Source of the DNA: Limisphaerales bacterium
GTDB taxonomy: Bacteria; Verrucomicrobiota; Verrucomicrobiia; Limisphaerales; UBA11358
Assembly: GCA_025362675.1 (NCBI GenBank)
Contig: JANYFN010000242.1
Location: forward strand, 1-39,926
Direction of reading: 5' to 3'
Length of the DNA: 39,926 bases
Under the pieces are notes generated by a model. That model saw only the letters and a program-made list of their open reading frames with translations, had not been told where the DNA came from and did not search any database. The position numbers and the translations under genes were made by a program. Each line of letters opens with the position of its first letter. The first letter of the stretch is position 1. Positions 1,923 to 39,926 of this stretch are shown piece by piece.

Positions 1923-2129
1923 TTAGTTTTTAGAGTGGCGATTGTCCGGTGATGTTGGGCCTGGGGTTTTGATGGCCCCGAAGCCGTTTTTACAATTCCA
2001 CGAGCTGGTGGGCCAAGCATCTAGCGCCAATTTTTTGGTGCGTTTTTTGAATTCAGTTTCAGTCATTTGAATCAACATTTTGCTTTGTTTGTTTACGGTA
2101 TCAGGTGGAAAAAATCCAAAATCAAGCAT
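1923..2129 (-). CDS. Small open frame overlapping the kinase stop, doubtful
   Basis: 68 codons. The ATG (2127-2129) lies just inside the kinase C-terminus, before the kinase stop codon at 2122-2124, a geometry that could allow translational coupling. The product is basic, has no recognisable domain, no signal peptide and no convincing codon bias. It may be chance. It fills most of the gap between the kinase and the response regulator. Confidence 0.2.
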   Translation of the reverse strand: MLDFGFFPPDTVNKQSKMLIQMTETEFKKRTKKLALDAWPTSSWNCKNGFGAIKTPGPTSPDNRHSKN

Positions 2130-5100: not shown

Positions 5101-5310
5101 TTCAGTGCTCGCCGCCTCCGCCTGTTCCGCGCGGGAAAAATTCCGCGCGGCATGAAACCCCGCGATCACGGCGGCGACGGCTAAGCCGAAAACTGCCAGC
5201 AGGATGAAACCCACGGCACGATTGGCGCGGTTCAAATCATGGCGCATGGATTCGCGCGTGGCGGCCAAACCATCGTTTCCAAAGTTGTGGGCTGGAAAAT
5301 CCTGTTTCAT
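2122..5310 (-). CDS. WD40-propeller sensor histidine kinase
   Basis: 1062 residues. A membrane segment at about 33-52 (FILLAVFGLAVAAVIAGF) is followed by a helical stretch of the kind seen before WD40 repeats in planctomycete and verrucomicrobial Ser/Thr kinases. About 600 residues of WD40-like blades follow; FSPDG/WSPDG...VWD-type motifs recur at about 190-212, 308-335, 341-380, 440-460, 580-610, 620-645 and 715-738. A second membrane segment at about 776-797 leads to the cytoplasmic kinase: HisKA with H837 (GIAHDFNN), N-box NLVVNASEAM (945-), DSGPGI (992-), FEPFFTTK, and GTGLGL (1020-1025). The catalytic part resembles NtrB/FixL-type kinases. The topology puts the propeller outside the cytoplasm as the sensor. 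The ligand is unknown. The likely partner is the response regulator downstream. Confidence 0.92.
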   Translation of the reverse strand: MKQDFPAHNFGNDGLAATRESMRHDLNRANRAVGFILLAVFGLAVAAVIAGFHAARNFSRAEQAEAASTERLWNSYVAQARAVRLIPEAGRREKIFNVVSNAAVIRKNAALRSEAMASLALADIEIDQPLRSVPAGIDQVELDSALAYFAYGNTAGEVFLGSTKDASTNRQMLSAQALGAGTRLPVRSVVFSPDGSKLAARYSGGAMVVWDLVTQEKIITSGLEATNVQVAGMTFWPAGDKFSFGDADAAGQISIFDFAAKTKISSAIHVGTRPFRFRPGTMEVAIATDNRVELCRYPAETPFQKLETPTRIYAVAWSPDGTRLAGSTEDGDVYLWDQANGSTRILRGHSEPCVRLTFSPDGKLLASGSRDGTTRFWDVAQGQTLVVATEGLANVFSRDGQRIGFWKPSEGYGIWRLRSSESYDLLVCPKSEGAFLSVDLSPSGRWCIATQSKGIRIWDLKNDSRETFFPGTNFMSARITPDEAALYICRGGTLERWPFSTDDAGGKIDPAATEIVALPEGKGARAIALSLDGHWALVELSDLRLAVLNLTTNTAPVFLAEHFRQISLRTPGSATGAGRFAISPDGRWAVTGFGIGAEDHPMVWDTHTGALVATLPFRSAVVVFSPDGRRLGTAGTATFAIWSVDDWKLLNSFNRDENGVTQGSLAFMRDSDEIAVTRTRQLAQLRNALTNEPYADLIAPQLQSVNSLRMSLDGTVMVTASATDKLQVWHLDVLRKKLATLNLDWRTAQPNTPEIAATKPNASSTVRATLIVSLAGFCLAALFALASLRRHREAIAGYLAAETKSALRNRELEIAKVELMHSQKMQALGSLATGIAHDFNNLLSVIRMSNKLIGRETKTNGDIQENVADIEQAVMQGKNVVGSMLGYARTEDTVVGPTDISSVVEDTVSLLSKEFLSGIALTLELDRAVPKVKVSRGRLEQILLNLVVNASEAMQGKGKLKITLHKRGGIPLKRYALRPTEAKEFIELSVADSGPGIAPENQLRLFEPFFTTKRSGAKAGTGLGLSLVHSIAEQDGLGLSVESEADKGATFTIVVPVTTLDA

Positions 5311-9549: not shown

Positions 9550-12500
9550 CTAGTTTTGGGAATCGACGCGTGCCACGCTCGCCGAAAGTTGCTGATTTGA
9601 CCAACCACCGCCGAGCGCCTTGATCAGTTGAACGGAGGCGATTAAACGCCGACCGGCGAGCTGGGCGTTGGCGCGTTCCGCCGTCAATGTATCGCGGCTC
9701 GCGTCCACAACTTCGATGTAGGCGACGATGCCGGAACGATAGCGATCGGTGGCGAGTTCCGAGGCGCGGCGGGCGCTGGCGACGGCGCGTTGCTGGGCTT
9801 CCGCTTGGATGGCAAAATGATAAATGCCGGACAAACTATTTTCCACTTCGCCAAAGGCCACGAGGACTTGCTGGCGATAAAGCGCAGTCGATTGTTGAAG
9901 CGCCGCCCGCGAATATTTGTAATTCGCCTTGTTCCGTCCGCCCGCAAAAATCGGGAGCGAAAGGCTTGGCCCGATGGACCAAGTGCGGCTGTCCCAGTTG
10001 AACAACGATGAAAGATCGCCGCTCAAATATCCGGCCGACCCTGTGAGCGTCAGCACGGGGAAAAAGGAGGCCTTGGCCACGCCTATCTTGGCATTAGATG
10101 AAGCAAGCTGGCGTTCGGCTTGAGCGACGTCGGGCCGGCGTTCCAATAAATCAGACGGTAACCCAGCGGGAATTATAGGAGGTTGCGGATTCCAATTCGG
10201 GTCATACACGGCGGCGAGCTTGAAGCTGGACGGATTTTCGCCGACCAAAATGGCGATGGCGTTTTCCAATTCATCGCGGCGATGAGCGAGCGACGCGGCT
10301 TCGGCCTCCGTGCTGGCGAGTTCGGTTTCCGCCTGTGCGACGTCAAGTTCGCTGCCGATGCCGCCTTCCAAACGACTGCGCACAAGCCGCACTTGTTCAT
10401 GCCGCAAAGCAATCGTGCCATTGACGGTAGCAATTTCTGCGTCGAGCGAACGCAGTGAAAAATAATTTTGCGCCACGTCGGATTGAAGGGTGAGCAGCAC
10501 GTTATAAAAATCCGCGAGCGACGCTTGCGCGTCGGCGTGCGCGCCCTGAAAAAGGCGGCGGATACGCCCCCACAAATCCACTTCGTAGCTCAAATCCAAA
10601 GGCGTTCTAAAAGTGTTCGCCGTGATATTGCCGAAGCTAGGATTAGCGTTGGGCGAATAACCTTCCCGCGAAAAACTCGGATCCAAATTTAAGTTCGGCA
10701 TCAATTGGCTGCGCGCGATACGCGCCGTGGCGCGTGCCTCGTCCACGCGCGCGACGGCAGCTTTGAGTTGCTGGTTGGCTTGCACCGCCTGTGTTTCCAG
10801 CGCGTTCAGATTAGTGTCGCCGAAAATTTCCCACCAATTTCCTTTCGGCACATGGTCGAGCGGCTGGCCTGCTTTCCATGAACCGAAATCCACGGCTTTG
10901 TAATTTGCGGGAACAGCATTCGTCGGCTGTTTATAGTCCGGGCCGACGGTTGACCAATTAGCTTTCGCAGACCCGACCGCGAACAGCAGGGCAATCGTAA
11001 TGATGCCAGTCACAGCCGCGCTGGAGCCGAGTAATGCACTTTTAGTTTCAGGCGTCACCGGTTTTTTCTTCCAGCCAATTTTCATCAGCGTCACATAAAA
11101 TACCGGCGTTAAAAATAAACCAAAAACGGTGACGCCAATCATGCCGGAGAACACGGCGACACCCATCGCCTGACGCATTTCCGCGCCCGCGCCATGTGCG
11201 ACGACGAGCGGGAAAACACCCGCGATAAATGCGATGCTCGTCATTAAAATTGGACGCAAACGCAGGCGGCACGCTTCGATGGCCGCGGCGAACGGCGACA
11301 TACCTTCGTCCTGTTTAATTTTGGCAAATTCAATAATTAAAATTGCGTTTTTGCACGCGAGACCGACCAGCACGATGAGACCAATCTGCGTGAAAATATT
11401 ATTATCGCTGCCTTTGAGCCACACGCCGGTGATGGCGAACAGCAGACACATTGGCACGATCAAAATAATCGCGAGCGGCAGACGAAAACTTTCGTAAAGC
11501 GCGGCCAGCACGAGGAACACGAGCAGCAAGCACAACGGATAAACGTAGATGGCGGCATCGCCCGCAAGGATGCGCTGGTAGGTGAGTTCGGTCCATTCAT
11601 ACGACATGCCGCGTGGTAGATTTTCCGTTGCGAGTTTGGACATCAACGCTTCGGCTTGCCCCGAACTAAAACCGGGCGCAGGGCCACCGTTGATTTCCGC
11701 CGCCGGATAACCGTTGTAGCGCATCACGCGGTCGGGGCCGTGCGATTCCGTGACTTTCACGACTGCACCGAGTGGCACCATTTGCCCGCGATCATTGCGT
11801 GTTTTCAACTGCGTGATGTCAGCGGCGTGGGCGCGAAACGGTGCGTCCGCCTGCGCGATGACTTCGTAAGTGCGACCGAATTTGTTGAAGTCATTCACAT
11901 ATAGCGAGCCGAGATAAATCTGCATCGTCTCGAAAAGATTTTGCAGCGGCACGCCCTGAGTTTTCGCTTTTTCGCGATCAACGTTCGCGTCCAACTGCGG
12001 CACGTTCACGGTGAATCCCGAAAACGTTCCGGCCAGTCCAGGTGTCGCGCGGCTCTTGCCGATGACGGCCTGCAAGTTTTGATACAGCGCGTCGTAGCCG
12101 AGGTCGGCGCGGTCTTCGACATACAATTTGAATCCACCAATCGTGCCGAGACCCATGACGGCGGGCGGCGGCACAGCGAGGACAAACGCATCTTGGATCA
12201 CGCTCAATTTTTGGTTGAGCGCACCCGCGATGGCCGGCCCGCTCAAGTTCGGCGTCGTGCGTTCTTCAAACGGTTTCAACGTAAAGAAAACGATGCCGGC
12301 ATTCGGCGCGACGCTGAATCCGCTGATGCTTAATCCCGGAAACGCGACAGCCGATTCCACGCCGGGTTGTTTCAAACCGATGTCCGACATCCGGCGGATC
12401 ACCGCTTCGGTGCGATCAAGCGAAGAGCCGTCCGGCAGTTGCGCGAACGCGACGAGATATTGTTTATCCTGCGTCGGCACGAAGCCGGTCGGGATTTTAT

Positions 12501-14193
12501 CAAAGCTCCAGCCGGTCAGGAAAACGAGTCCACCATAAACGACGAGCGCGATCGCACTCTTGCGTAAAACACTGGCGACGCCGGTGGAATATTTTTCGCC
12601 CGCCCACGCGAACGCGCGGTTAAACGGATTGAAGAACCAGCCGAACATTTTTTCCATCGCGCGCGACAACCAATCTTTCGGCGCTTTATGATCCTTCAGC
12701 AACACCGCACAAAGCGCGGGCGAAAGTGTCAGCGAATTGAACGCGGAGATGACGGTGGAAATCGCAATCGTCAGCGCGAATTGCTTGTAGAACTGGCCGG
12801 TCAAGCCGGTGATGAACGCCGTCGGCACAAACACCGCGCATAACACGAGCGCCGTGGCGACGATTGGTCCGGTCACTTCTTTCATCGCCTGCCGCGCCGC
12901 GTCGTGCGCCGACAAACCGCGCGCGATATTTCGCTCCACATTTTCGACGACGACGATGGCGTCGTCCACCACGATGCCGATGGCCAGCACGAGACCGAAG
13001 AGCGAAAGCGCGTTGATACTAAACCCGAACGCGAGCATGATCGTGAACGTGCCGATGAGCGAAACCGGCACGGCGGCGAGCGGAATGATCGCCGCACGCC
13101 ACGTCTGCAAGAAAATGATGACGACGATGACGACGAGAATAATCGCTTCGCAGAGCGTGTGAATCACGGCCTCGATGGAATGCCGCACGAAAACCGTCGG
13201 GTCATAAACGACGTTGTAATCCAAGCCTTCGGGGAAATTTCTCTTCAACTCCGCCATCTTGGCGCGGACGTTTTTGGAAAGTTCCAACGCATTCGCCCCG
13301 GGCGTCTGGAAGATCGGGATCGCCACCGCTGTCTTGTTATCCAGCAAGGATTGTAGCGCGTAACTGCCAGCGCCGAGTTCGATGCGCGCGACATCTTTGA
13401 GCAACGTTTTTTCGCCATTCGCGCCGGTCTTGACGATGACGTTGCCGAATTCTTCTTCGGAAATCAGACGACCTTTCACATTCACCTGCATCTCAAAATT
13501 CGCCGGACTGCTCAAGGGTTGCTGGCCGATGACGCCGCCAGCGACTTGCACATTTTGTTCGCGGATGGCCGCGACGATGTCGCTGGCGGTGAGATTGCGC
13601 GCGGCAATTTTGTCTGGGTTCAACCAGATGCGCATCGCGTAATCGCCGGAGCCGAACAGTTCCACGTCGCCTGCGCCAGGAATGCGCGCGAGCACGTCCT
13701 TGATCTGCAACGTGGCGTAGTTGCGGATATAAACTTTGTCGTAACGATTGTCGGGCGAAAACAAATGGACCACCATCGTGAGATCGGGCGATTGCTTGGT
13801 GGTCGTGACGCCGAGCGTGCGGACTTCTTCGGGCAATTTCGGCAGCGCCTGCGCCACGCGATTTTGCACCTGCACCTGCGCCTTGTCCGGGTCCGTGCCG
13901 AGATTAAACGTGATGGTCAGCGTCATTACGCCATCGCCGGTCGCCTGCGAAAACATGTAGAGCGAACCTTCAACGCCGTTGATGGCCTGTTCGAGCGGCG
14001 ACGCGACGGTCTCCGCGATGGTCTTCGGATTCGCGCCGGGATACGTCGCCTTCACGACAATCGTCGGCGGCACGACTTCGGGATATTCGCTGATGGGCAG
14101 CTTGAACATCGCGATCAATCCCATGATGAAAATGGCGATGGACAACACGCCGGCGAAAATCGGGCGCTTGATAAAATAATGTGAAAAGTTCAT
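9550..14193 (-). CDS. RND efflux pump fused to an outer-membrane factor
   Basis: 1547 residues, about 500 longer than an HAE1/AcrB-type pump. Residues 1 to about 1045 are a full RND protein: start MNFSHYFIKRPIFAGVLSIA, typical porter-domain text, and the TM4 proton-relay pair DD near residue 408 (GIVVDDAIVVVENVERN), ending VFYVTLMKIGWKKK. After a short linker comes a hydrophobic stretch VTGIITIALLFAVGSAKA (about 1058-1077), then NWSTVGPDYKQP, the start of a NodT/OprM-type outer-membrane factor whose two repeats run to the C-terminus. The hydrophobic stretch looks like a retained signal peptide; AKA-NW resembles a signal peptidase I site, and the lipobox Cys usual in NodT proteins is absent. 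It follows the fusion-protein gene by 80 nt. The whole tripartite pump is thus made from two genes. Confidence 0.93.
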   Translation of the reverse strand: MNFSHYFIKRPIFAGVLSIAIFIMGLIAMFKLPISEYPEVVPPTIVVKATYPGANPKTIAETVASPLEQAINGVEGSLYMFSQATGDGVMTLTITFNLGTDPDKAQVQVQNRVAQALPKLPEEVRTLGVTTTKQSPDLTMVVHLFSPDNRYDKVYIRNYATLQIKDVLARIPGAGDVELFGSGDYAMRIWLNPDKIAARNLTASDIVAAIREQNVQVAGGVIGQQPLSSPANFEMQVNVKGRLISEEEFGNVIVKTGANGEKTLLKDVARIELGAGSYALQSLLDNKTAVAIPIFQTPGANALELSKNVRAKMAELKRNFPEGLDYNVVYDPTVFVRHSIEAVIHTLCEAIILVVIVVIIFLQTWRAAIIPLAAVPVSLIGTFTIMLAFGFSINALSLFGLVLAIGIVVDDAIVVVENVERNIARGLSAHDAARQAMKEVTGPIVATALVLCAVFVPTAFITGLTGQFYKQFALTIAISTVISAFNSLTLSPALCAVLLKDHKAPKDWLSRAMEKMFGWFFNPFNRAFAWAGEKYSTGVASVLRKSAIALVVYGGLVFLTGWSFDKIPTGFVPTQDKQYLVAFAQLPDGSSLDRTEAVIRRMSDIGLKQPGVESAVAFPGLSISGFSVAPNAGIVFFTLKPFEERTTPNLSGPAIAGALNQKLSVIQDAFVLAVPPPAVMGLGTIGGFKLYVEDRADLGYDALYQNLQAVIGKSRATPGLAGTFSGFTVNVPQLDANVDREKAKTQGVPLQNLFETMQIYLGSLYVNDFNKFGRTYEVIAQADAPFRAHAADITQLKTRNDRGQMVPLGAVVKVTESHGPDRVMRYNGYPAAEINGGPAPGFSSGQAEALMSKLATENLPRGMSYEWTELTYQRILAGDAAIYVYPLCLLLVFLVLAALYESFRLPLAIILIVPMCLLFAITGVWLKGSDNNIFTQIGLIVLVGLACKNAILIIEFAKIKQDEGMSPFAAAIEACRLRLRPILMTSIAFIAGVFPLVVAHGAGAEMRQAMGVAVFSGMIGVTVFGLFLTPVFYVTLMKIGWKKKPVTPETKSALLGSSAAVTGIITIALLFAVGSAKANWSTVGPDYKQPTNAVPANYKAVDFGSWKAGQPLDHVPKGNWWEIFGDTNLNALETQAVQANQQLKAAVARVDEARATARIARSQLMPNLNLDPSFSREGYSPNANPSFGNITANTFRTPLDLSYEVDLWGRIRRLFQGAHADAQASLADFYNVLLTLQSDVAQNYFSLRSLDAEIATVNGTIALRHEQVRLVRSRLEGGIGSELDVAQAETELASTEAEAASLAHRRDELENAIAILVGENPSSFKLAAVYDPNWNPQPPIIPAGLPSDLLERRPDVAQAERQLASSNAKIGVAKASFFPVLTLTGSAGYLSGDLSSLFNWDSRTWSIGPSLSLPIFAGGRNKANYKYSRAALQQSTALYRQQVLVAFGEVENSLSGIYHFAIQAEAQQRAVASARRASELATDRYRSGIVAYIEVVDASRDTLTAERANAQLAGRRLIASVQLIKALGGGWSNQQLSASVARVDSQN

Positions 14194-21630: not shown

Positions 21631-23367
21631 ATGAAACAAAGCACTAAAATATATTTCACATTGCTCTGCGGGTTGCTGGGCATGCTCACCGTATCCGTGG
21701 CGGAAGATTCTGCGGTTCGCGAAAATTTGTCGCGCAGCATTTTGTCCGAGGGCGCAGAGCAACGGCAGCAGGTCGCGGCGCTCGCCGACACCGGCTCCAA
21801 GCTCGTGCATGACGTGCTCGTGGCGTGGACGCGCGACAACGTTTTTCTCGTCACCACCGGCGCGGTGAAAATTCCTGTGCTGCTTGAAGACCTGACCGAT
21901 CCCAACGGCAAGGCGCGCGCCATCGTGATCGCCGATGGAAAATTTTTGCTTGATGAAAATAAAAAGGAACTTCGTTTCGGGCCGACGGAGCTGACGGCTG
22001 CCGAAACAGATTCCGCCCTGCGCGGCGTCATTCAGCAGACGCTGGATTCGCTGGCGCTGGCCGATCCCAATCCAGATTCTCGCAGGAACGCCATCTTGAA
22101 ACTCGGCAATTCGCACAAGTTGAAAAATATTGCCGTGCTGCAAACGCGGCTCGCCAAGGAAACCGATGCGAGTGTCCGCCGAAGCATCAACGAAGCCATC
22201 GCCATGCTGCAATTGGGCGACCGCGATCCAAAAATTCAAAGCGCCGCTGCGCACCAACTTGCCGCGCTCAAATCCATCGGCAGCCTCGACATGGTGACGG
22301 CGCTCGCCAACAACAAGTCCGCCGCGCCCGAAGTCGTGCAGGCCGCGAACCAAGCCATCGTCAAGATTGACGGGCACATTGGCGTCGTGAATTTTTTCGG
22401 CACGATTTTTCGCGGGCTCAGCTTAGGTTCAATTTTGCTCGTCGTCGCGCTCGGTCTTGCGATCACGTTCGGCTTGATGGGCATCATCAACATGGCGCAT
22501 GGCGAGATGATTGCGGTCGGTGCCTACACCACTTACGTCGTGCAAAATATTTTCGGCGCGGGCTTCGCATTTTCCGTCAACCTGCCGTTCACATTTTTTG
22601 GTCATCCGCTCGGTTTCGGTTTGCATCTGCCCGGCATGAACGCGACGGGCGCATTTTATGAAAGTTATTTTCTCTTCGCGCTGCCGTTGAGTTTTATGAT
22701 GGCGGCGTTGGTGGGGCTGGTGCTGGAACGCACGGTCATCCGTTTTCTTTACCGGCGTCCGCTGGAATCGCTGCTGGCGACGTGGGGCGTTTCGCTCGTG
22801 ATGCAACAGTTGTTCCGCATGGTTTTTGGCGCGAACAATGTGCAAGTCAGTTCGCCGAACTGGTTGCAAGGACATTTCACCATCAATGACGTTTTGCTCG
22901 GCTACAATCGCGTATTCGTCATCGCGTTCGCCGTTTTGATCGTCATCGGCACTTGGCTGCTGCTGACAAAGACTCCGCTTGGCCTGCTGATTCGTGCGGT
23001 GATGCAAAACCGCGACATGGCCGCGTGCATGGGCGTGCGCACGGCGCGCGTGAACATGATGACGTTCGCGTTCGGCTCCGGTCTCGCGGGACTCGCGGGC
23101 GCGTTCCTCTCGCAGATCGGTAACGTCGGACCGAGCCTCGGCCAAAGTTACATTGTGGATAGTTTTATGACCGTGGTGGTGGGCGGCGTCGGCAGCATCG
23201 TGGGCACGGTGTATGCCTCTGCCGGCATTGGCACGAGCGACCAGATTTTGCAACAAGTCACCGGCTCGCCGGTCACGGGAAAAATCGTGGTGCTCGTGTG
23301 CATCATCTTGTTTTTGCAATGGAAACCCGGCGGATTATTTTCCATCCGCAGCCGCAACCTTGATTGA
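21631..23367 (+). CDS. urtB: Urea ABC transporter permease UrtB
   Basis: 578 residues. A signal peptide (1-24, ending SVAED) is followed by about 220 residues of soluble HEAT-like helical domain (IAVLQTRLAKETDASVRRSI), then the LivH-type permease: FGLMGIINMAHGEMIAVGAY is the hallmark, then eight or so membrane helices ending in the KPGGLFSIRSRNLD tail. UrtB pairs with UrtC in the inner membrane. The ATG directly follows the terminator hairpin, with no room for a normal ribosome-binding site beyond the T-run. Confidence 0.95.
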   Translation: MKQSTKIYFTLLCGLLGMLTVSVAEDSAVRENLSRSILSEGAEQRQQVAALADTGSKLVHDVLVAWTRDNVFLVTTGAVKIPVLLEDLTDPNGKARAIVIADGKFLLDENKKELRFGPTELTAAETDSALRGVIQQTLDSLALADPNPDSRRNAILKLGNSHKLKNIAVLQTRLAKETDASVRRSINEAIAMLQLGDRDPKIQSAAAHQLAALKSIGSLDMVTALANNKSAAPEVVQAANQAIVKIDGHIGVVNFFGTIFRGLSLGSILLVVALGLAITFGLMGIINMAHGEMIAVGAYTTYVVQNIFGAGFAFSVNLPFTFFGHPLGFGLHLPGMNATGAFYESYFLFALPLSFMMAALVGLVLERTVIRFLYRRPLESLLATWGVSLVMQQLFRMVFGANNVQVSSPNWLQGHFTINDVLLGYNRVFVIAFAVLIVIGTWLLLTKTPLGLLIRAVMQNRDMAACMGVRTARVNMMTFAFGSGLAGLAGAFLSQIGNVGPSLGQSYIVDSFMTVVVGGVGSIVGTVYASAGIGTSDQILQQVTGSPVTGKIVVLVCIILFLQWKPGGLFSIRSRNLD

Positions 23368-27800: not shown

Positions 27801-28556
27801 ATGCACCTCTCTCCTCGTGAAATTGACAAGCTGCTGTTGCACAACGCCGGGTTTCTCGCGCAGAAACGCCTCGCGCGTGGGCTGCGGCTGAATCATCCCG
27901 AAAGCGTCGCGCTCATCGCCACGGTGCTTTTGGAATTCATCCGCGATGACAAGAGCGTCGCCGAGCTGATGAATCTCGGACGGCAATTGCTGGGCCGTAA
28001 CCAAGTCATGTCCGGCGTGCCGGAAATGATTTACGATGTGCAAGTGGAAGGAACTTTTCCCGACGGCTCGAAGCTCGTAACCGTGCATCATCCGATTGCG
28101 AGCGCGAATGGTGATTTGAAACTCGCACTGCATGGAAGTTTTTTGCCGGTGCCGGATTTGAAAATGTTCAAATCCGTTGCGGACGAACCCATTCCGGGTT
28201 CAACCGAAATCAAAGACGGCGAGATCGAACTCAACGCCGGTCGCGCGACGGCAGAAATTCGCGTCACGAATCTCGGCGACCGTCCGATCCAAGTCGGCAG
28301 CCATTACCATTTCATCGAGACGAACGCGGCGCTGAAATTTGATCGCGGCGTGGCCTATGGCAAACGGCTCGACATTCCAGCGGGAACGGCAGTGCGCTTT
28401 GAACCGGGTGAGACGAAAACTGTGAAGCTCGTTGAAATCGCGGGCAAAAAAATCATTCGCGGTGGCAATAATTTGGCGAGTGGAAAAGTTTCCGCTGCCG
28501 GGAAAAATGCAGCGTTGAAACAAATCAAAGCGAAAGGATTTTCCCATGTCGCATAA
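27801..28556 (+). CDS. ureAB: Fused urease gamma and beta subunits (UreA-UreB)
   Basis: 251 residues. Residues 1-100 are the gamma subunit ([20 protein letters not shown], with [13 protein letters not shown] and [20 protein letters not shown]). After a linker, residues about 130-230 are the beta subunit ([43 protein letters not shown]). Most bacteria have two separate proteins; the fused form is known from Helicobacter UreA and some other phyla. Its last 11 nt overlap ureC, and Shine-Dalgarno AAAGGA for ureC lies inside its end. Confidence 0.95.
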
Positions 28557-30261
28557 AATGAAACGCAGCCACTACGCCGATATGTTCGGCCCGACGACCG
28601 GAGACAAAGTCCGGCTCGGCGACACGTCGCTCATCCTCGAAGTCGAAAAGGATTTCACGGTCTATGGCGACGAATGCAAATTCGGCGGCGGCAAAGTCAT
28701 CCGCGAAGGCATGGGGCAGGCTGCGGGCGTCGGCGCGAAAGACGCGCTCGATTGTGTCATCACCAACGCGCTGATTGTTGATTACACTGGAATTTACAAA
28801 GCGGACATCGGCATCAAAAACGGTTTGATCTCCGGCATCGGCAAGGCGGGCAATCCCGACGTGATGGCGGGCGTGACCAAAAAAATGATCATCGGCGTCA
28901 CCACCGAAGTCATCGCGGGCGAAGGTCTCATCATCACGGCGGGCGGACTCGACACGCACATCCATTTCATCTGTCCGCAGCAGGCGCACGAAGCCATCGC
29001 CGCCGGACTCACGACGATGGTTGGCGGCGGCACCGGCCCGGCGGTCGGCACTTGCGCCACGACTTGCACGCCTTCGCCATTTTATTTTAAGGCGATGTTG
29101 CAAGCAGTGGATTCGCTCCCGCTCAATTTCGGTTTCACCGGCAAAGGCAATACGGCGATGCCGGAAGGTTTGCGCGATCAAATCGAGGCTGGCGCGATTG
29201 GTTTGAAATTGCACGAAGACTGGGGAACGACGCCTGCCGCGATTGATTGCTGTTTGAGCGTGGCGGACAAGCACGACATTCAAGTGACGATTCACACGGA
29301 CACGTTGAACGAATCCACTTTTGTCGAAGGAACAATCGCCGCGTTCAAGGGCCGCACGATTCACACCTATCACAGCGAAGGCGCGGGCGGCGGTCATGCG
29401 CCGGACATCATCCGCATTTGCGGCGAACCAAACGTGCTGCCGAGTTCCACCAACCCGACGAAACCTTACACGGTCAACACGATTGACGAGCATCTCGACA
29501 TGCTCATGGTGTGTCATCACCTAGATCCGAATCTGCCCGAGGACGTGGCGTTCGCAGAGAGTCGCATTCGAGGCGAGACGATTGCGGCGGAAGATATTTT
29601 GCACGACCTCGGTGCGATCAGCATGATGAGTTCGGATTCACAGGCGATGGGCCGCATCGGCGAAGTCATCACGCGGTCGTGGCAGACGGCGGATAAAATG
29701 AAGCAGCAACGCGGTCGGCTCGCAGAAGAAAATGGTGACAACGACAACGTCCGCATCAAACGTTACATTTCCAAATACACGATTAACCCCGCGCTAGCGC
29801 ACGGCATGGCGCACATCATCGGCTCGATTGAAATCGGCAAACTTGCGGATTTGGTTTTGTGGAAACCTTCGATGTTCGGCGCGAAACCGGAGATGGTCAT
29901 CAAAGGCGGCATCATCGCGTGGGCGCAGATGGGCGATCCGAACGCGAGCATTCCGACGCCGCAACCGGTGTTCATGCGTCCGATGTTCGGCGCGTTTGGC
30001 CGCGCGACGGGCATGAGTTCCATCGCGTTCGTCAGCCAGCTCGCGAAGCAGAAAAGCGTGGGGAAAAGTTACGGCCTGACCAAGCGCATCGAAGCGGTGA
30101 AAGGCTGCCGCAAAGTCGGCAAGAAGGATTTGAAGTGGAACAACGCGATGCCGAAGATCACCGTTGATCCTGAAACTTACGAGGTGCGCGCCGATGGCGA
30201 ATTGCTGACGTGCGAGCCGGCGAAAATTCTGCCGTTGGCGCAGCGGTATCAATTGTTTTGA
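28546..30261 (+). CDS. ureC: Urease alpha subunit
   Basis: 571 residues, the normal length. The nickel ligands and active site are all present: GLDTHIHF (two His), GLKLHEDWG with the lysine that becomes carbamylated, [24 protein letters not shown], the flap [20 protein letters not shown] with the catalytic His, and the metal Asp in SSDSQAMGR. It hydrolyses urea to ammonia and carbamate in the cytoplasm. Start ATG 28546 has AAAGGA 7 nt upstream. The stop is 3 nt before the ureF GTG. Confidence 0.97.
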
Positions 30262-32315: not shown

Positions 32316-33455
32316 TCACTTTACCGTGGATGGAGTTTCCGCCAGCGCTTTTTTGACATGCACGCCAAACTTTGGCGTGGGCGTGTAATTCCAGTCGGAA
32401 ATCAAAGCCGGCCCGGCTCCGGGATGCAGATCCCACGCCGTCCAGGACCAGCGATGTTCCTCGAGCGCTTTCAGGACGTGCAGCAGCCAGTTATCCGAGG
32501 GATCTACTTTGCCCGGCCCGGCATTGCCCCCAAATTCGCTGACGATCACCGGGAATTTAGCCGAGGCGGTTTCCATTTTGGCAATCCACGCATCCACGCT
32601 GTCGTTTTTGCTGTCGTAACAATGGTTGGCGTAGATCACGCCGTTCCCGTGCGGATCGAAAAGCTGCCGGCCCTCGAGAATACCGGAAAAGTCATACGCC
32701 CAATCCAAACCGCCCGCGATGACCACGTTCTTCGCACCGGTCGCGCGCACGGTATCGAGCAAAGCCTGCATGCCCACGGCCTGAAATGTTTTTGGGTCGC
32801 GCATTTGCCGGCGATTATTCGGCTGGTCGGTGATGGTGCCGCCCTGCAGCCAGACCTCCCACGACACATCGTGCGGCTCGTTATACAAATCGAAAATCAC
32901 CGCCGGATGGTTCGCATAGACCGGTGCAAAATCCTTCCAGAACGCCACGCTGTTGGAATCGGGCATCGAATGTTGACCGATGTTCTTGCCCCACTCGTTG
33001 CAATCCGACCAGTGCAAATCCAGAATGATATAACAGCGATTGGTCGTGCAGATGTCCACGATTTGCTGGATCAACTCGCGATACGATTTGCCGCCATCGG
33101 TCTGTTCCGGCGCTTGGCCAAACCAGCGGTCCTGCGTGAGCGGGAGGCGGATGATATTCACCTGCCAGTCGTGAATCGCCGTATCGACAGTTTCAAGAAT
33201 GTGCCCCTGACCGTCGCTCGACCATTCCATGCTGGCGGTGTTCACGCCCCGTAGCAAAACCGGCTGCCCCTGACTGTTGAGAATTTTTGTGCCGACGACT
33301 TTGAGCGGCAGCGGGGCATTCCCAGCCGCGCGGTTTTGTAAAGAGGTGCAACCCGCCACGAGGCCCAGGCTGGCAGACAAAACCGCGCAAACAAATCCGT
33401 TAAGAACGTTCGTGCCTTTGCGCCTTTGCGCCTTTGCGTGAAAAATCTTCGGCAT
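32316..33455 (-). CDS. GH5-family glycoside hydrolase lipoprotein
   Basis: 379 residues from ATG 33455 (TTG 33467 is possible). A lipoprotein signal ends at lipobox LVAGC (Cys 36), followed by LLRGVNTASMEW. The GH5 catalytic pair is present: acid/base Glu 193 in FDLYNEPHD and nucleophile Glu 307 in VIVSEFGGN; DLHWSD and ANHCYDS motifs complete the (beta/alpha)8 active site. The family cleaves beta-glucans, mannans and related polysaccharides; specificity cannot be read from sequence. The n-region of the signal is encoded by an 8-bp repeat (KIFHAKAQRRKG). It is the last gene of the minus-strand glycosidase run. Confidence 0.92.
   Translation of the reverse strand: MPKIFHAKAQRRKGTNVLNGFVCAVLSASLGLVAGCTSLQNRAAGNAPLPLKVVGTKILNSQGQPVLLRGVNTASMEWSSDGQGHILETVDTAIHDWQVNIIRLPLTQDRWFGQAPEQTDGGKSYRELIQQIVDICTTNRCYIILDLHWSDCNEWGKNIGQHSMPDSNSVAFWKDFAPVYANHPAVIFDLYNEPHDVSWEVWLQGGTITDQPNNRRQMRDPKTFQAVGMQALLDTVRATGAKNVVIAGGLDWAYDFSGILEGRQLFDPHGNGVIYANHCYDSKNDSVDAWIAKMETASAKFPVIVSEFGGNAGPGKVDPSDNWLLHVLKALEEHRWSWTAWDLHPGAGPALISDWNYTPTPKFGVHVKKALAETPSTVK
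33415..33438. repeat. Three 8-bp tandem repeats in the GH5 leader
   Basis: CCTTTGCG three times (GGCGCAAA-type read on the coding strand). It encodes the HAKAQRRKG-like stretch of the signal peptide n-region, a peptide known from such repeats, and adds exactly eight codons. Confidence 0.75.
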
Positions 33456-33481
33456 AGATTCGGTCAATGGTTGTGGGCAAT

Positions 33482-36418
33482 TTATTTCAAAAATCCGTCC
33501 AACGCGGGAACCAACACGTCCGCCCAGATTTGATAACCTTTTTCATTCGGGTGCAACAAGTCGGGAAACATTTCGCGCGGCAGCGTGCCGTCCGGCGCAA
33601 GAAACTTTTCACCGAGATCGAGGAATTTTATTTTGTCATCCGCGAGTTGCGAAATTCCGGCGTTCACCGTTTTGACTTGGTCGCGGATGGGATCATTTTT
33701 TTGACCCCGCGGAAAAATGCCGAACAGAATTATTTTCGTCGCGGGCAAATGAAATTGAATCCGCCGCACCAGATTAGAAATGCCCGCGATGATTTCCGGC
33801 GTCGAGTTGCGTGGCGAGCCGTCGTCTTCGTTGCCGGAATTATTTGTGCCGATGAGCAAGACGACCACTTTGGGCGCGATGTTTTCGAGTTCGCCATTCT
33901 CAATGCGCCACAAAACATTCTGAATGCGATCGTAGCCGATGCCGAAGTTTGCAGCGCGGCGCGGCGCAAATTTTTCCGACCAGATTTTGCTGCCACCATT
34001 GCCCCAGCGCCAGCCGTCGGTGATGGAATCGCCAATGAATAAAAGGTCAATACCACCTTTTTTTGCGTCGGCTACATAACCTTCATGGCGGGAAATCCAG
34101 TTCGTTGGAAAATCGCGCGGCGTCGGAATTAGCGCGGTGTTCACTGCCGGTTTCGCCGTGGTTTTTTTCAACGCGGCTTCCAATTCAGTAATAGCCGTCA
34201 GTTGGTTTGGGCTCAAACCGTCGGCATTTTTCAACTGTTCCAAAACTGTTTGCGTCGTCGCGGAATCGTTCGCGTTCACGGCGGCAACGAGACCGTCCCA
34301 AATGTTTTTCGCTTCGGGCGAACCGGAATTAAAATCATCGGCGTGCGCGGCGACAATTTCTTTTGGTGTTTTTGATGCGGCCTGAATCGCCGCATACATC
34401 GGCGCAGCGTCTTGCGGAAAAACTGTCGGCTCCGGCTTCACGCCGTTAACGGAATTGATGATGAGATCGTCGAACAGCGCGGTGTTGCGCGCGTTGCCCT
34501 CGCCGCCGGTGACGAGTCCAGCCATGCCGCTCGCGTAAGTGCGGTCGCCCACGGACAAAATTTGTTTGCCGTCCACGAACGCGGTGAGGTTCGTGCCGGA
34601 AAATTGCAGCTTCACATTGTGCCAGGTGTTCGTGCCAATTTCGCCGACGGAAGCGGTGGCCAGTTGGTTTCCGGGCGCACCGTTTTTGGTTTGCGTGGAA
34701 AGCCAGAGCGAGCAAGTGCCATCGGCATCGAGGCGCACATAATAACCTTTCGGATTGCAGCCATAACCGCCGCCGGTGTTGCTGACGCGACCAAGCAAGC
34801 CCGCCCAGCCGCCGTGTTCGAGATTCACGTCCGCGCTGACTTCGTAATCCGTCCAATGCTCATCGCCGATAATGGTGTAGGGCATCCATTCCGGCGCCCA
34901 GCTCTGCGCTTTTTCGGCGACGACCTGGCGCAGACATTTTCCGTTTCCATCCGGGCGATCCGCGATTTCAAATCCGCCGGAAATGTCCGCCGTGTAATGC
35001 GGCAAGTAGCCAAATGATTTCGCGTCGGCGTAGTGATCAAAATTTTCATGATACGGAAACGGAAAATTTTTCGCAGCGGGCTGCTCGGCGAACGAACCTT
35101 TCTGCTGGCCGCTCGTGGTGGAGAGGCTGTAAATGGAATTTGGTTCAAGCGTGATCGAAAATGAACCGTTGACCGGCGTGAGGTCGTCGAGCTTCACGAA
35201 CTGTTCTTTTTCATTGCTGCGCCAGACGCAGATTTTTCCCGCCGCCAATCCGCCGCTGACTTGAAACGCGATGGTCTGATTCACCGCGCTACCTTTGGTT
35301 TCGAGAATTGTGCTGAAATCCTTACCCGAAGCCAGCGTCACAAAACTGCCGCCGTCATTGAGGTTTCCGCACGCGCCGTCCACATATTTCCAACCGACCG
35401 CAACGAATTGGCCGTAGTGCGCGTAAGCCCAGAGCGCAGGATGGATTTTATATTCGCCGCTCCACGGCGTCGCGGCGGCGAGCGTGGTGACGTCAAAAAA
35501 CGGTTCGATGGGATAGGTCGAGGCTTCGAGATACCAGCACAGAATTTTGGTCACGCCGTTGGAAATAAAATTCTGGTTGAACACCTGCACCAGACTGATT
35601 TCACAATCAAAACCTTTTTTATAGACGTGCTCCTCGCTGTTCCAAATCGGCTTATGCATTTCGTCGGCCATTACTTTAACGGCGTCCGGCGTGCCGACTT
35701 CCGACATAGTGTGATTACTGATGATGTCCACGGCCTTCCGCAACTCGGCGTCGTTGGTCAGATTTTTTGTCCAATTCCATTTGTCTTTGCCCCAGTTGTC
35801 GAAGCCGTGCAGCCGGACTTTTTCCAGCCCGGCGCGGTCCAGCGTGGCACGCAATTTTTTGGCGAAATTTTCGTTCACGCCTTTCTCGTTGCGGCAGCCG
35901 ATGGCATCGAAGGTCAAGCCGTGTTCGTGCTGGAGGCCCTGAATCCATTGGGCGTAATAGTCACACATATCCTGCGACCAAAAATTGTTATTGCCGACCC
36001 AATGTGGACAGCCCCACGCCACGCCGTCGAGCGTGATAGCCGGATTGCGATTTTTCGCCTCGCGCATGAGCCACCATTCGTAGCCGCGAAAATAATTTTC
36101 ATCGCCGCGAAAATGCGCGTGGCTCAATTCTGAGCCTTGCGTGGAATTACCGTCGCCGGGAATCTCCACGAACAGTGCGGACATCGCCGCACCGAACTTG
36201 GGCTTGAACAAATAATCCAAAATCTGGCTGCGTTGCGGCTCGACATAATCCTTTAGCAAAACCGAGGTCGCGCCGCCGCCGCTCACGCCGCCAATGCCGT
36301 CGAAGGTCTTGCCGCCATTGGTGACGGTGATAGAAATGGTCTGGTCACCGAAAACCGGAATGCAGAAAACGGCGGCGAGGACGCAAAAGAAATTTTTTTT
36401 TGAAGTAAAAATGATCAT
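33482..36418 (-). CDS. GH59 galactocerebrosidase-like enzyme fused to an SGNH/GDSL esterase
   Basis: 978 residues. A signal peptide (1-24, ending VFG) is followed by FDGIGGVSGGGATSVLLKDY and PQRSQILDYLFKPKFGA, nearly the wording of animal galactosylceramidase, and ENYFRGYEWWLM. The acid/base is probably Glu 178 (GCRNEKG) and the nucleophile Glu 262 (IWNSEEH), by comparison with human GALC Glu 182 and 258. The beta-sandwich and lectin-like domain run to about 660 (IIGDEHWTDYEVSADVNLE). A helical linker (about 665-770) leads to an SGNH hydrolase (788-978): GDSIT (Ser 798), GTNN (857-), and catalytic Asp 953/His 956 in DLLHP. The protein is secreted and should remove beta-galactose and an acyl or acetyl group. 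It lies between the GH2 and GH5 genes with 4- to 26-nt gaps. Confidence 0.93.
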   Translation of the reverse strand: MIIFTSKKNFFCVLAAVFCIPVFGDQTISITVTNGGKTFDGIGGVSGGGATSVLLKDYVEPQRSQILDYLFKPKFGAAMSALFVEIPGDGNSTQGSELSHAHFRGDENYFRGYEWWLMREAKNRNPAITLDGVAWGCPHWVGNNNFWSQDMCDYYAQWIQGLQHEHGLTFDAIGCRNEKGVNENFAKKLRATLDRAGLEKVRLHGFDNWGKDKWNWTKNLTNDAELRKAVDIISNHTMSEVGTPDAVKVMADEMHKPIWNSEEHVYKKGFDCEISLVQVFNQNFISNGVTKILCWYLEASTYPIEPFFDVTTLAAATPWSGEYKIHPALWAYAHYGQFVAVGWKYVDGACGNLNDGGSFVTLASGKDFSTILETKGSAVNQTIAFQVSGGLAAGKICVWRSNEKEQFVKLDDLTPVNGSFSITLEPNSIYSLSTTSGQQKGSFAEQPAAKNFPFPYHENFDHYADAKSFGYLPHYTADISGGFEIADRPDGNGKCLRQVVAEKAQSWAPEWMPYTIIGDEHWTDYEVSADVNLEHGGWAGLLGRVSNTGGGYGCNPKGYYVRLDADGTCSLWLSTQTKNGAPGNQLATASVGEIGTNTWHNVKLQFSGTNLTAFVDGKQILSVGDRTYASGMAGLVTGGEGNARNTALFDDLIINSVNGVKPEPTVFPQDAAPMYAAIQAASKTPKEIVAAHADDFNSGSPEAKNIWDGLVAAVNANDSATTQTVLEQLKNADGLSPNQLTAITELEAALKKTTAKPAVNTALIPTPRDFPTNWISRHEGYVADAKKGGIDLLFIGDSITDGWRWGNGGSKIWSEKFAPRRAANFGIGYDRIQNVLWRIENGELENIAPKVVVLLIGTNNSGNEDDGSPRNSTPEIIAGISNLVRRIQFHLPATKIILFGIFPRGQKNDPIRDQVKTVNAGISQLADDKIKFLDLGEKFLAPDGTLPREMFPDLLHPNEKGYQIWADVLVPALDGFLK

Positions 36419-36422
36419 GAAA

Positions 36423-39254
36423 TTATTTCAGCGGATTTACGCCCACTGCTTTCGATAGTTGAATGTTATCTGAATTTTTCGGCAGCGCGCCAAAATAAAA
36501 ACTGACCGCGCCGTGATATTCACCGCTGGCCTGGGTCAGCATCCCTTGCGGGCCGCCGTCCTCCGCGCCGTGAAACTTGCTGCCGATGGGCGGGATGATT
36601 TCCAGAAACGCCAGCCCTGATTCCGGCAACGGCACAGCGGCTTTGCCCTGGATTTTTTTCGGCGGAAACTCCGGCGTCAGCACTTGCACAAACGCGGCCG
36701 GATTTTCCGGCACGGCGGTGATGAGACCCTCGGTGGTCGCGAGTTGCAGCCAGCGCACGCCCGAGAAACACCCTTTGAATTCAGGGTAAAGCCAGCCGCG
36801 ATGGCCGGTGATGGTGTTGTTGTAATCGTTTTCCCAAACATTGAGCGTGCCGCCCGGACGCCGATTTTGCCAGACGCGATACGGCCCATTGCCCAGCCAC
36901 TTTTTGTGCTTCACTTGCGTCTCGGGATAATCAAAAACCACTCCCGTAAATTCCTTCGGCCCGGTGGCGGCGTAAGTGTAGTCGCACTGAATCCAGCCGT
37001 TGCCGCGCACACGCCAGACGACGCGCGTCAAATCTCCGGTGTAGTTTGCGGTGACAATCAAATCCGCGCCGTCGCTTGATTTTTCAACTTTCGTCAGCGT
37101 CGCGCTGCCGGATGCGGGGCGCGGCCCGTTAGCGAGTGAAAAATTTTGCGCGCCACGTTTCACGCTGATGAGTTGCCCGTTTTGTTTACTGAATTGCACA
37201 GCTAGTTTGCCAACGCTGGCTTCAATCACATCCGACGTTTCAGTGGCGCTCGGAGAATTTTTCGTGGACGCGCTGATAGCTTGGCGGAAATTGTCCGCGT
37301 TCGCCAACGGCCAAACCCAGGTCCATAGTTCGCGGCCAGCCGGATCGCTGACGCGGAGGGACAACGCATCGGCCGCCGACCAATCCTTCGGCAGATTGAG
37401 CTCGATGAGGCCGCTGTTCGCCGGCGCGATGGACGGAACGATTGCCTTGCCGTGCGAAATTATTTTGAACCCGGCGGCGGATTCGGATGGGCTGCGAAAT
37501 TTGCGAAGCTCCCAAGTGAAGTCGCATTTTTGAGCATCGGTGAAGCTGTAGCGATTTTCCACGGTCAGATTGCCGTCAAAATTTTCCGGCAGCGTTTTGT
37601 TCGTGACGATCAACGGCGACCAGAGTTCCTTGATCGTAAAAAAACTGGATTCCTTTTCGCGGTGCGGACCGACGATGCCATCGGGCGCATTGTTGGTGGC
37701 GACATCAATTTCGCCGCTGTCGGGACGCTTTATTCCCTCGTCGAGAAACGCCCAGATGAAGCCGCCGCCGAGAACTTTGCTTGCGTGCATCATCGTCCAA
37801 TAATCTTCCAAGCCCGCGCCCGCGCCGCCATCGAAAAGGCCGTGCATGAATTCCGTGGGCATATAAATCACATTCGTGGCGCACATTTTTTGCGCGGCGG
37901 CATACGTCCGGTAATGTGCCGTGTTCACGCCACGAAAATTTTCCCACGGGTGCAACACATGACGTTGTTGCGGATCCCACATCGCAAAATCATCGTCCAG
38001 TTCGCGATTCCAGCCGCCTTCGTTGCCGTTGTCCCAAAACAAAATGCACGGATGATTCACATCGCGGACGACCGTTTCCTCGACGAGCTTGTGGCCGACT
38101 TCGGAATCGTAACTTTTCTGCCAGCCGCCGAGTTCATCGAGAACATACAAACCTAGCTCGTCGCAGAGATCGAGAAATTGTGCGTCCGGCGGATAGTGCG
38201 ACATCCGCACGGCATTCATGTTCATTTCTTTCAACAAGCCAATGTCCAGACGATGCACAGTCTCGCTCAAGGTGCGGCCCGTCTCCGGCCAAAAAGAATG
38301 GCGGTCGCAGCCTTGCAAAATCAGGCGGTGGCCGTTGACGTAGAGGCCGTCGCCCGCGCGGACTTCCATCGTGCGAAAACCAAATCGTTCGCTGACTTGA
38401 TGCAAAACTTTACCGCCTTGCTTGAGCTGGATTTGAACGCGATAAAGGTTTGGAGTTTCCGCCGTCCACTGGCGCGGCGCGGAAATTTGCGTTTTCAAAA
38501 TCGTTTTGTTTCCGGTCAACGGCTGCTGGAATACACCGCCAACAGGATTGCCTTTAAGGTCGGTGATTTGCGCTTCGATGCTGTCCGCGCCCGCCGTGGC
38601 GTTGGCGAAAACATCCACGCTGAACGCGCCGTCGGCTTGGGCATTAATCGCGAGTCGCTCGATGAATTGCGCGGGCACGGCCTCCAAATAAACCGGACGA
38701 TAAATGCCGCCGAAGATCCAGAAATCCGACTGACGCTCGGCGCGGTTGACGGAGTTGTTGGCGGAATGTTTGTCCACCGTGACTTCCAAATTATTTTGCG
38801 CGCCGAATTTCACGAGCGAGGTGACGTCGTATTTGAAACGATAAAAACTCCCCTGATGCAGCGGGCCGACGGACTGGCCGTTGATGGCGGCGCGCGTGTC
38901 GGTCATCACGCCTTCAAACACGAGGAAGATTTTTTTGCCCGACCAATTTTTCGGAACTTTGAACGCGTGCTCGTAACGCCCTTGTTCAATTGGCTCGTTC
39001 AAGTTGTCGTGCGAATAATGCAGCGTGCCGAAACCTTGCATCTCCCAGTTCGCCGGCACGGCGATGTTGGTCCAATAGCCCGACTGCCAGCCGGCGGTGC
39101 AGAAAAATTTCCACGGCACGGTATGATCTTTGTCTGTGCCGGATAAAAATTGGCGCTGCGTTTCTTGACCGAACACGGGCATTGCGAACAGGCAGGTCAA
39201 AAGCATCAGCAGAACTTCCGACCGGAAAAAATTACGGAGATTGCTTTTTTTCAT
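36423..39254 (-). CDS. GH2-family beta-galactosidase-like enzyme
   Basis: 943 residues with a signal peptide (ending PVFGQ, about 30). The GH2 order is clear: sugar-binding jelly-roll domain (VPANWEMQGFGTLHYSHDN), Ig-like domain, then the TIM barrel with GCDRHSFWPETGRTLS, acid/base Glu 412 in DNGNEGGWN and nucleophile Glu 468 in MPTEFMHG. C-terminal domains resemble the beta-galactosidase small chain (ITAVPENPAAFVQVLTPEFP). Secreted GH2 enzymes of this kind take beta-galactosides or related sugars from oligosaccharide ends. It is 4 nt upstream of GH59-SGNH and 6 nt after the propeller-like gene, so cotranscribed. Confidence 0.93.
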   Translation of the reverse strand: MKKSNLRNFFRSEVLLMLLTCLFAMPVFGQETQRQFLSGTDKDHTVPWKFFCTAGWQSGYWTNIAVPANWEMQGFGTLHYSHDNLNEPIEQGRYEHAFKVPKNWSGKKIFLVFEGVMTDTRAAINGQSVGPLHQGSFYRFKYDVTSLVKFGAQNNLEVTVDKHSANNSVNRAERQSDFWIFGGIYRPVYLEAVPAQFIERLAINAQADGAFSVDVFANATAGADSIEAQITDLKGNPVGGVFQQPLTGNKTILKTQISAPRQWTAETPNLYRVQIQLKQGGKVLHQVSERFGFRTMEVRAGDGLYVNGHRLILQGCDRHSFWPETGRTLSETVHRLDIGLLKEMNMNAVRMSHYPPDAQFLDLCDELGLYVLDELGGWQKSYDSEVGHKLVEETVVRDVNHPCILFWDNGNEGGWNRELDDDFAMWDPQQRHVLHPWENFRGVNTAHYRTYAAAQKMCATNVIYMPTEFMHGLFDGGAGAGLEDYWTMMHASKVLGGGFIWAFLDEGIKRPDSGEIDVATNNAPDGIVGPHREKESSFFTIKELWSPLIVTNKTLPENFDGNLTVENRYSFTDAQKCDFTWELRKFRSPSESAAGFKIISHGKAIVPSIAPANSGLIELNLPKDWSAADALSLRVSDPAGRELWTWVWPLANADNFRQAISASTKNSPSATETSDVIEASVGKLAVQFSKQNGQLISVKRGAQNFSLANGPRPASGSATLTKVEKSSDGADLIVTANYTGDLTRVVWRVRGNGWIQCDYTYAATGPKEFTGVVFDYPETQVKHKKWLGNGPYRVWQNRRPGGTLNVWENDYNNTITGHRGWLYPEFKGCFSGVRWLQLATTEGLITAVPENPAAFVQVLTPEFPPKKIQGKAAVPLPESGLAFLEIIPPIGSKFHGAEDGGPQGMLTQASGEYHGAVSFYFGALPKNSDNIQLSKAVGVNPLK

Positions 39255-39260
39255 TTCAAA

Positions 39261-39926
39261 TCAGCGTTGCAAGTCGCCGGGATTTTCGGGCACACCGGGA
39301 TCATCCAGCATTTGCACCGCGCTGGCCGGGCCGAGATTAGCCCAATCTTTAAGCGCCCAAACGACGCGTTTGTCCGGCGTGACTTCGATCAACTGGCAGT
39401 TCGCGCCATTGCCGCCACGCGAGCAGAGGATCGTGTTGCCGTTCGCGAGCCGGACGCAGCTTTGCGAGCCTTTGAAGCTGATGCCGGGCGGCAAATCTTT
39501 TTTCAAATCAAACTCCCAGACAGTTTCGCTTTTTGAATTCACCTCGCGCGTGACTTCATCTTTTTCGCCGGTGATGAGCGTGTTGCCATTGTGCAGACGA
39601 ACCGCCGCCCACGGCGAGGCGATGGGATACGACCAAATTTCTTTGAAGTTTTTATCATACTCCACGACCTTCGCTTTCGAGAGAAACGAGGCGAGATAAG
39701 TGCCGCTGGCCGTCTGCCGCCAGCGCCGGAATTGCCCGTGAACATTCGTCCCGGCATCAGGAATGACGCGGTCAATTTCGGTGATGCCGGTTTTTTTATT
39801 GATGAGCATCATGCGCGGCGGCGTGCCGTTGCGGACGAGCAACACTTTGTCCGGGCCGATGGGTTGGACAGAGTGAATCTCTGTTCCCTTGGGCGCGTCG
39901 AGCCGCCAGACGACTTTCTTTTGCGG
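39261..39926 (-). CDS. Propeller-like secreted protein, partial (N-terminus off the right edge)
   Basis: The minus-strand frame is open to the window edge; 222 codons with stop are visible. The product has repeated beta-strand units with short motifs of the PQQ/NHL-like type: VVWRLDAP at the edge, KVVEYDKNFKEIWSYPI, RLHNGNTLITG, RLANGNTILCS, RVVWALKDWANLG. This resembles single-propeller proteins common in Verrucomicrobiota. No catalytic motif is visible. It ends 6 nt before the GH2 gene, so it is probably in the operon and may bind glycan or act as a partner. Confidence 0.7.
   Translation of the reverse strand, partial: PQKKVVWRLDAPKGTEIHSVQPIGPDKVLLVRNGTPPRMMLINKKTGITEIDRVIPDAGTNVHGQFRRWRQTASGTYLASFLSKAKVVEYDKNFKEIWSYPIASPWAAVRLHNGNTLITGEKDEVTREVNSKSETVWEFDLKKDLPPGISFKGSQSCVRLANGNTILCSRGGNGANCQLIEVTPDKRVVWALKDWANLGPASAVQMLDDPGVPENPGDLQR

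Follow-up and report, generated by a model that had tools for sequence, protein, structure and literature searches.

A GH59-SGNH fusion protein from a Limisphaerales bacterium, probably a bifunctional galactosidase and esterase merged from three genes

GH59 is known mainly through the human Krabbe-disease enzyme, galactocerebrosidase (GALC), and the roles of its bacterial relatives are largely unreported in the papers that we searched, among which we found no characterization of a bacterial GH59 enzyme. GALC needs saposin A to present its lipid (PMC5764952), and mutation of its Arg380 (R380W) inactivates the enzyme (PMC5031207). On the esterase side, a 2026 paper described CE25, an acetylesterase of the SGNH type that acts on mannan and whose expression accompanies that of an epimerase (BcCE25 from Bacteroides cellulosilyticus; PMC13276840). 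Fusions of glycosidases to esterases are already known, and the pairing of GH59 with SGNH appears to be new and lineage-specific; the papers searched held no report of it, and the initial annotation was likewise aware of no characterized enzyme of this build.

Here we describe such a fusion in a 39,926-nucleotide stretch of DNA (the window) from one draft assembly (306 contigs) of a bog-type verrucomicrobial genome. The fusion gene, its parts and its neighbors are as follows.

39261..39926, minus strand: upstream ORF cut by the window and contig end, PQQ/propeller-like by eye (inspection)
36423..39254, minus strand: GH2 exo-beta-galactosidase-like enzyme, 4 bp upstream of the fusion (BT4156 profile)
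33482..36418, minus strand: fusion gene of GH59, helical domain and SGNH esterase, 978 aa (Pfam, AlphaFold2 model)
36347..36418, minus strand: N-terminal signal peptide, approximately residues 1-24, ending ...AAVFCIPVFG before DQ (type I by eye; low pLDDT over 1-22)
35408..36304, minus strand: GH59 catalytic TIM barrel, residues 39-337, with acid/base E178 and nucleophile E262 (Pfam, alignment, fold)
35111..35407, minus strand: GH59 beta-sandwich, approximately residues 338-436, without the C378/R380 loop of GALC (Pfam, alignment, fold)
34448..35053, minus strand: GH59 C-terminal lectin-like domain, approximately residues 456-657 (Pfam, model, fold)
34157..34393, minus strand: four-helix domain, residues 676-754, whose homologue is a free-standing small lipoprotein (sequence comparison, model)
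34115..34156, minus strand: flexible hinge, residues 755-768, pLDDT below 50 (model)
33485..34114, minus strand: SGNH esterase domain, residues 769-978, with S798, Y829 (replacing Gly), N859, D953 and H956 (Pfam, alignment, fold)
32316..33467, minus strand: GH5 lipoprotein with NEP and SEFG catalytic motifs, 14 bp downstream of the fusion (profile, sequence)

The fusion is read as a single ATG-started frame with zero internal stops. Pfam recognizes Glyco_hydro_59 at residues 39-337 (9e-92, with PF02057 matched over its full length, 1-294), Glyco_hydro_59M at 349-438, Glyco_hydro_59_C at 480-640 and Lipase_GDSL_2 at 794-964 (2e-29), and returned no significant match for the helical piece. By sequence, residues 36-567 come closest among solved proteins to mouse galactocerebrosidase, and residues 763-963 to the brain PAF-acetylhydrolase Ib catalytic subunits (1.7e-54 for the SGNH half in a profile search). 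The AlphaFold2 model (mean pLDDT 90.4, below 50 solely at the N-terminus, 1-22, and in the hinge) backs both folds, the GH59 part aligning with mouse GALC 3zr5 at Z 43.1 over 606 residues and the SGNH part with PAF-acetylhydrolase Ib 1vyh at Z 27.8 over 207 residues (VIA-align). The joining of a GH59 fold to an SGNH domain that the initial annotation had read from the letters is thus real, as is its likeness to animal galactosylceramidase, mouse GALC being the closest solved relative. The fusion is well formed, and we regard its architecture, catalytic residues and gene histories as established.

In the GH59 half the three-domain fold of GALC (mouse 3zr5/4ccc) is entire over residues 26-657, at 36% identity. 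E178 and E262 are the counterparts of GALC E182 and E258 and are invariant in the 36 bacterial relatives that we aligned, which also keep several galactose-site residues; Thr93, Trp135, Asn181 and Trp291 of GALC have their counterparts in the window protein. On the other hand, Phe307 stands for Tyr303 and Val265 for Ser261. We predict this half to be a retaining exo-beta-galactosidase. In the SGNH half the GDS serine S798, N859 of block III and D953 and H956 of block V are all present in the alignment, adding the asparagine to the three residues first pointed out, and these Ser/Asn/Asp/His positions are invariant across 29 SGNH relatives. They align with those of the PAF-acetylhydrolase Ib catalytic subunits (1wab, 1vyh; 37% identity), but unlike these the window domain is secreted, fused to a glycosidase, carries Tyr829 in place of Gly74 and an extra loop, GNEDDGSPRNSTPE, and has its kin in mannan operons. 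We predict this half to be an O-acetylesterase.

The ancestry of the esterase is informative with regard to substrate. In the SGNH tree the window domain forms a clade with four others (support 97/96). Each of these four resides in an operon that encodes a GH5 most similar, among solved proteins, to endo-mannanases, together with a GH27 alpha-galactosidase and a cellobiose 2-epimerase-like protein; the operon of the closest relative (G010, 79%) adds a GPH sugar symporter. A set of mannanase, cellobiose 2-epimerase and GH27 is a hallmark of beta-mannan utilization (compare PMC13276840, PMC6385246). The same genome carries, on contig C112, a mannan-type operon of a two-component system, a GH5 that is a paralogue of the window GH5 (78% identical), an SSF transporter, a mannanase-type GH5 and an epimerase; the SGNH gene is absent from it. 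By operon context alone the window domain can be likened to the beta-mannan acetylesterases (CE25, SGNH-type, PMC13276840; also CE2 and CE17) through the association with epimerase and mannan, although none seen there is joined to GH59.

Around the fusion itself, the GH2 and GH5 genes named at the outset as operon partners do lie on the same strand, with gaps of 4 and 14 bp, and this GH2-fusion-GH5 cluster may continue past the contig end. The GH2 protein scores 886 bits against the profile of the exo-beta-1,4-galactosidase BT4156, under the profile cut-off of 1700. We looked for a defence link of the locus and found none. The neighbors of other GH59 genes are GH26 and a GH35-like enzyme (L006), GH27, GH95 and GH2 (L145), GH78 (L018), GH28, GH115 and a SASA/BD-FAE esterase (L138), GH28 (L193), a BD-FAE and SGNH esterase (L144), a GDSL protein (L143) and GH2 (L015, L016, L017), and the GH59-GH5 order recurs in L013. 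These neighbors vary between pectin, xylan and mannan, and synteny therefore does not fix the substrate. Esterases nevertheless adjoin GH59 in three loci (L138, L143, L144), and such adjacency of galactosidase and esterase as separate genes supports a shared substrate. In two of these loci the protein immediately upstream of GH59 is itself a double esterase (L138 10967-12628, SASA and BD-FAE; L144 2591-4021, BD-FAE and SGNH).

We consider the fusion protein to be probably a secreted bifunctional beta-galactosidase/O-acetylesterase for acetylated plant glycans, merged from three genes, with activities and substrate predicted. The GH59 and SGNH catalytic parts would be held together by the small helical module and the flexible hinge, and would strip terminal beta-galactose and blocking acetyls from a single polysaccharide of the plant cell wall, or from oligosaccharides of it, which would in turn clear the way for the GH2 and GH5 partners. 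The fusion would thereby link the GH59 enzymes of bacteria with plant polysaccharides that are O-acetylated, and yields a concrete list of candidate substrates. Perhaps the best of these is an acetylated galactoglucomannan whose side chains are beta-Gal-(1,2)-alpha-Gal, followed by pectic galactan; the former agrees with the descent of the esterase and with the GH5 paralogue. Such a side chain occurs in the beta-galactoglucomannan (beta-GGM) of primary walls (PMC9614514, PMC11662442), and it would offer a target for a beta-galactosidase. Although speculative, one may envisage a new multicatalytic design in which a GH59 beta-galactosidase and a mannan-type acetylesterase are linked via a captured lipoprotein helical module and built for acetylated beta-GGM. 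We put this forward only tentatively; if true, it would be the first function for a bacterial GH59 (per the papers searched) and a dedicated bacterial tool against this recently described side chain.

The same bifunctional enzyme might instead act on acetylated pectin, namely RG-I with beta-galactan side chains. RG-I is acetylated, the GH2 partner resembles BT4156, an exo-beta-1,4-galactosidase of pectic RG-I, and GH28 (L138, L193) and GH78 (L018) adjoin GH59 elsewhere. However, mannan-type operons house the kin of the SGNH domain as well as the GH5 paralogue, and no pectin lyase, GH28 or GH105 was noticed among the window proteins scanned. We regard a pectic substrate as the less likely one, though a serious alternative in view of the GH2.

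A different doubt concerns whether the esterase half matters at all. Both active sites had been thought intact, and the catalytic residues of both are indeed kept; the block-II Gly of SGNH hydrolases, though, is replaced by Tyr829, and esterase activity could be altered by a Tyr at this oxyanion position. With its fold and profile fit, the domain is a member of the SGNH superfamily with one motif residue altered. The block-II position is Gly in 21 of the 29 relatives, Tyr or Trp in the five-member clade and Ala or Ser in three, and we read Tyr829 as the mark of a subfamily and not of decay because the four closest relatives, all operonic, also have Tyr or Trp there. The oxyanion contact is made by a backbone NH. 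Across the GH59, SGNH and GH5 parts, pairwise dN/dS values lie at 0.13-0.16 (roughly 0.15-0.16 where the esterase half is concerned); although they mix pre- and post-fusion time, they argue for a maintained function of all three. Given also the invariant Ser/Asn/Asp/His set, we find it improbable that the esterase is an inactive passenger to a GH59 half that alone matters, notwithstanding the lost Gly and a fusion seen once.

With GALC and PAF-acetylhydrolase Ib as the closest solved relatives of the two halves, it is natural to ask if the protein is a glycolipid enzyme, whose GH59 domain would degalactosylate galactosylceramide or plant galactolipids and whose PAF-AH-like domain would deacylate the lipid. 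Here the differences from GALC weigh heavily. The Arg380/Cys378 loop is absent from the window protein and from every bacterial GH59 aligned (n=36), and the window protein differs further in its additional helical and SGNH domains, its setting in a bacterial polysaccharide operon and the presumed lack of a saposin. GALC depends on saposin A (PMC5764952). Saposins are not known from bacteria, and the whole operonic context is polysaccharide-related. A glycolipid substrate is improbable. The coupling of de-galactosylation to de-acylation proposed in the initial annotation remains plausible, but its galactosylceramide or glycolipid side is unsupported in view of the missing Arg380 loop and the mannan and plant-polysaccharide contexts.

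Returning to the bifunctional polysaccharide enzyme, its origin can be traced within its own genus. In a congeneric genome (G032) the GH59 is 68% identical to that of the window and ends at ...PMYKP, and a separate ORF of 125 aa directly after it encodes a lipoprotein that, in its mature portion, corresponds to residues 684-753 of the fusion protein. Relatives of this lipoprotein bearing a lipobox occur in several genomes of the genus. The SGNH piece is a gene of its own in its nearest relatives (in G010 an N-run precedes it, leaving its upstream edge unread), and the window SGNH start coincides with the post-signal-peptide start of free-standing relatives (AENTAVIPVPRTFPTNW against AVNTALIPTPRDFPTNW). 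At the joints approximately 45 aa including the lipoprotein signal are missing, as is the SGNH signal. A lost stop, a frameshift or a sequencing error was considered as the cause and rejected because both inner signal peptides are gone; of the two misgivings attached to the initial reading, that the fusion might be confined to this genome and might stem from such an error, the former holds for the genomes scanned and the latter does not. We envisage instead that three genes merged in frame, the lipoprotein gene already standing beside GH59 in a relative and the SGNH gene having its nearest kin in beta-mannan operons; the most economical reading is that a unit of SGNH and GH5 related to the mannan operon has come to lie behind GH59. 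The fusion would thus show how three genes can become one multicatalytic enzyme when internal signal peptides are lost, and the operons that probably served as donors can still be seen within the same genus. An assembly chimera of neighboring or unrelated genes, for which the occurrence in one assembly only might be cited, is scarcely credible given two joints in frame at domain edges, two missing inner signal peptides, the independent GH59-helical adjacency in G032 and an SGNH-GH5 association that makes sense from the mannan operon.

As to recurrence across genomes, the loci read contained 112 GH59 ORFs, counting duplicates, and no second GH59-SGNH ORF was seen in this set. Our non-exhaustive scans took in 320 genomes of the order and 387 of the phylum, with long-ORF follow-ups, besides a pattern scan over the contigs of GTDB species; phyla beyond its own were covered solely by the pattern scan. 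Long GH59 ORFs elsewhere end in discoidin-like (F5/8) or other tails and not in SGNH. Among known fusions of glycosidases to carbohydrate esterases, which likewise place both enzymes on one chain, the window protein differs in its GH59 glycosidase, the lipoprotein-derived helical module between its halves and its local three-gene origin. One such fusion, of 1067 aa and with the same SGNH family, joins a GH3-like enzyme (by eye) to SGNH beside GH43-like genes (by eye) in Microbulbifer (L055 3256-6456), and tandem PAF-AH-like SGNH domains within one ORF were found in Kiritimatiellae and rumen bacteria (L057, L059).

Elsewhere in the window, the ORF at 9550-14193 (minus strand, 1547 aa) fuses a whole RND permease of the AcrB family (residues 3-1036) to a NodT/TolC-type outer-membrane efflux protein (1083-1530), and a single chain thus holds pump components of both membranes, inner and outer. 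Another at 2122-5310 (minus strand, 1062 aa) combines WD40 beta-propeller repeats (approximately 134-493) with a C-terminal histidine kinase (approximately 800-1060). Finally, an ABC permease of the branched-chain amino-acid/urea type (21631-23367, plus strand) has HEAT repeats at its N-terminus and belongs to a cluster that includes a urease alpha subunit (28546-30261).
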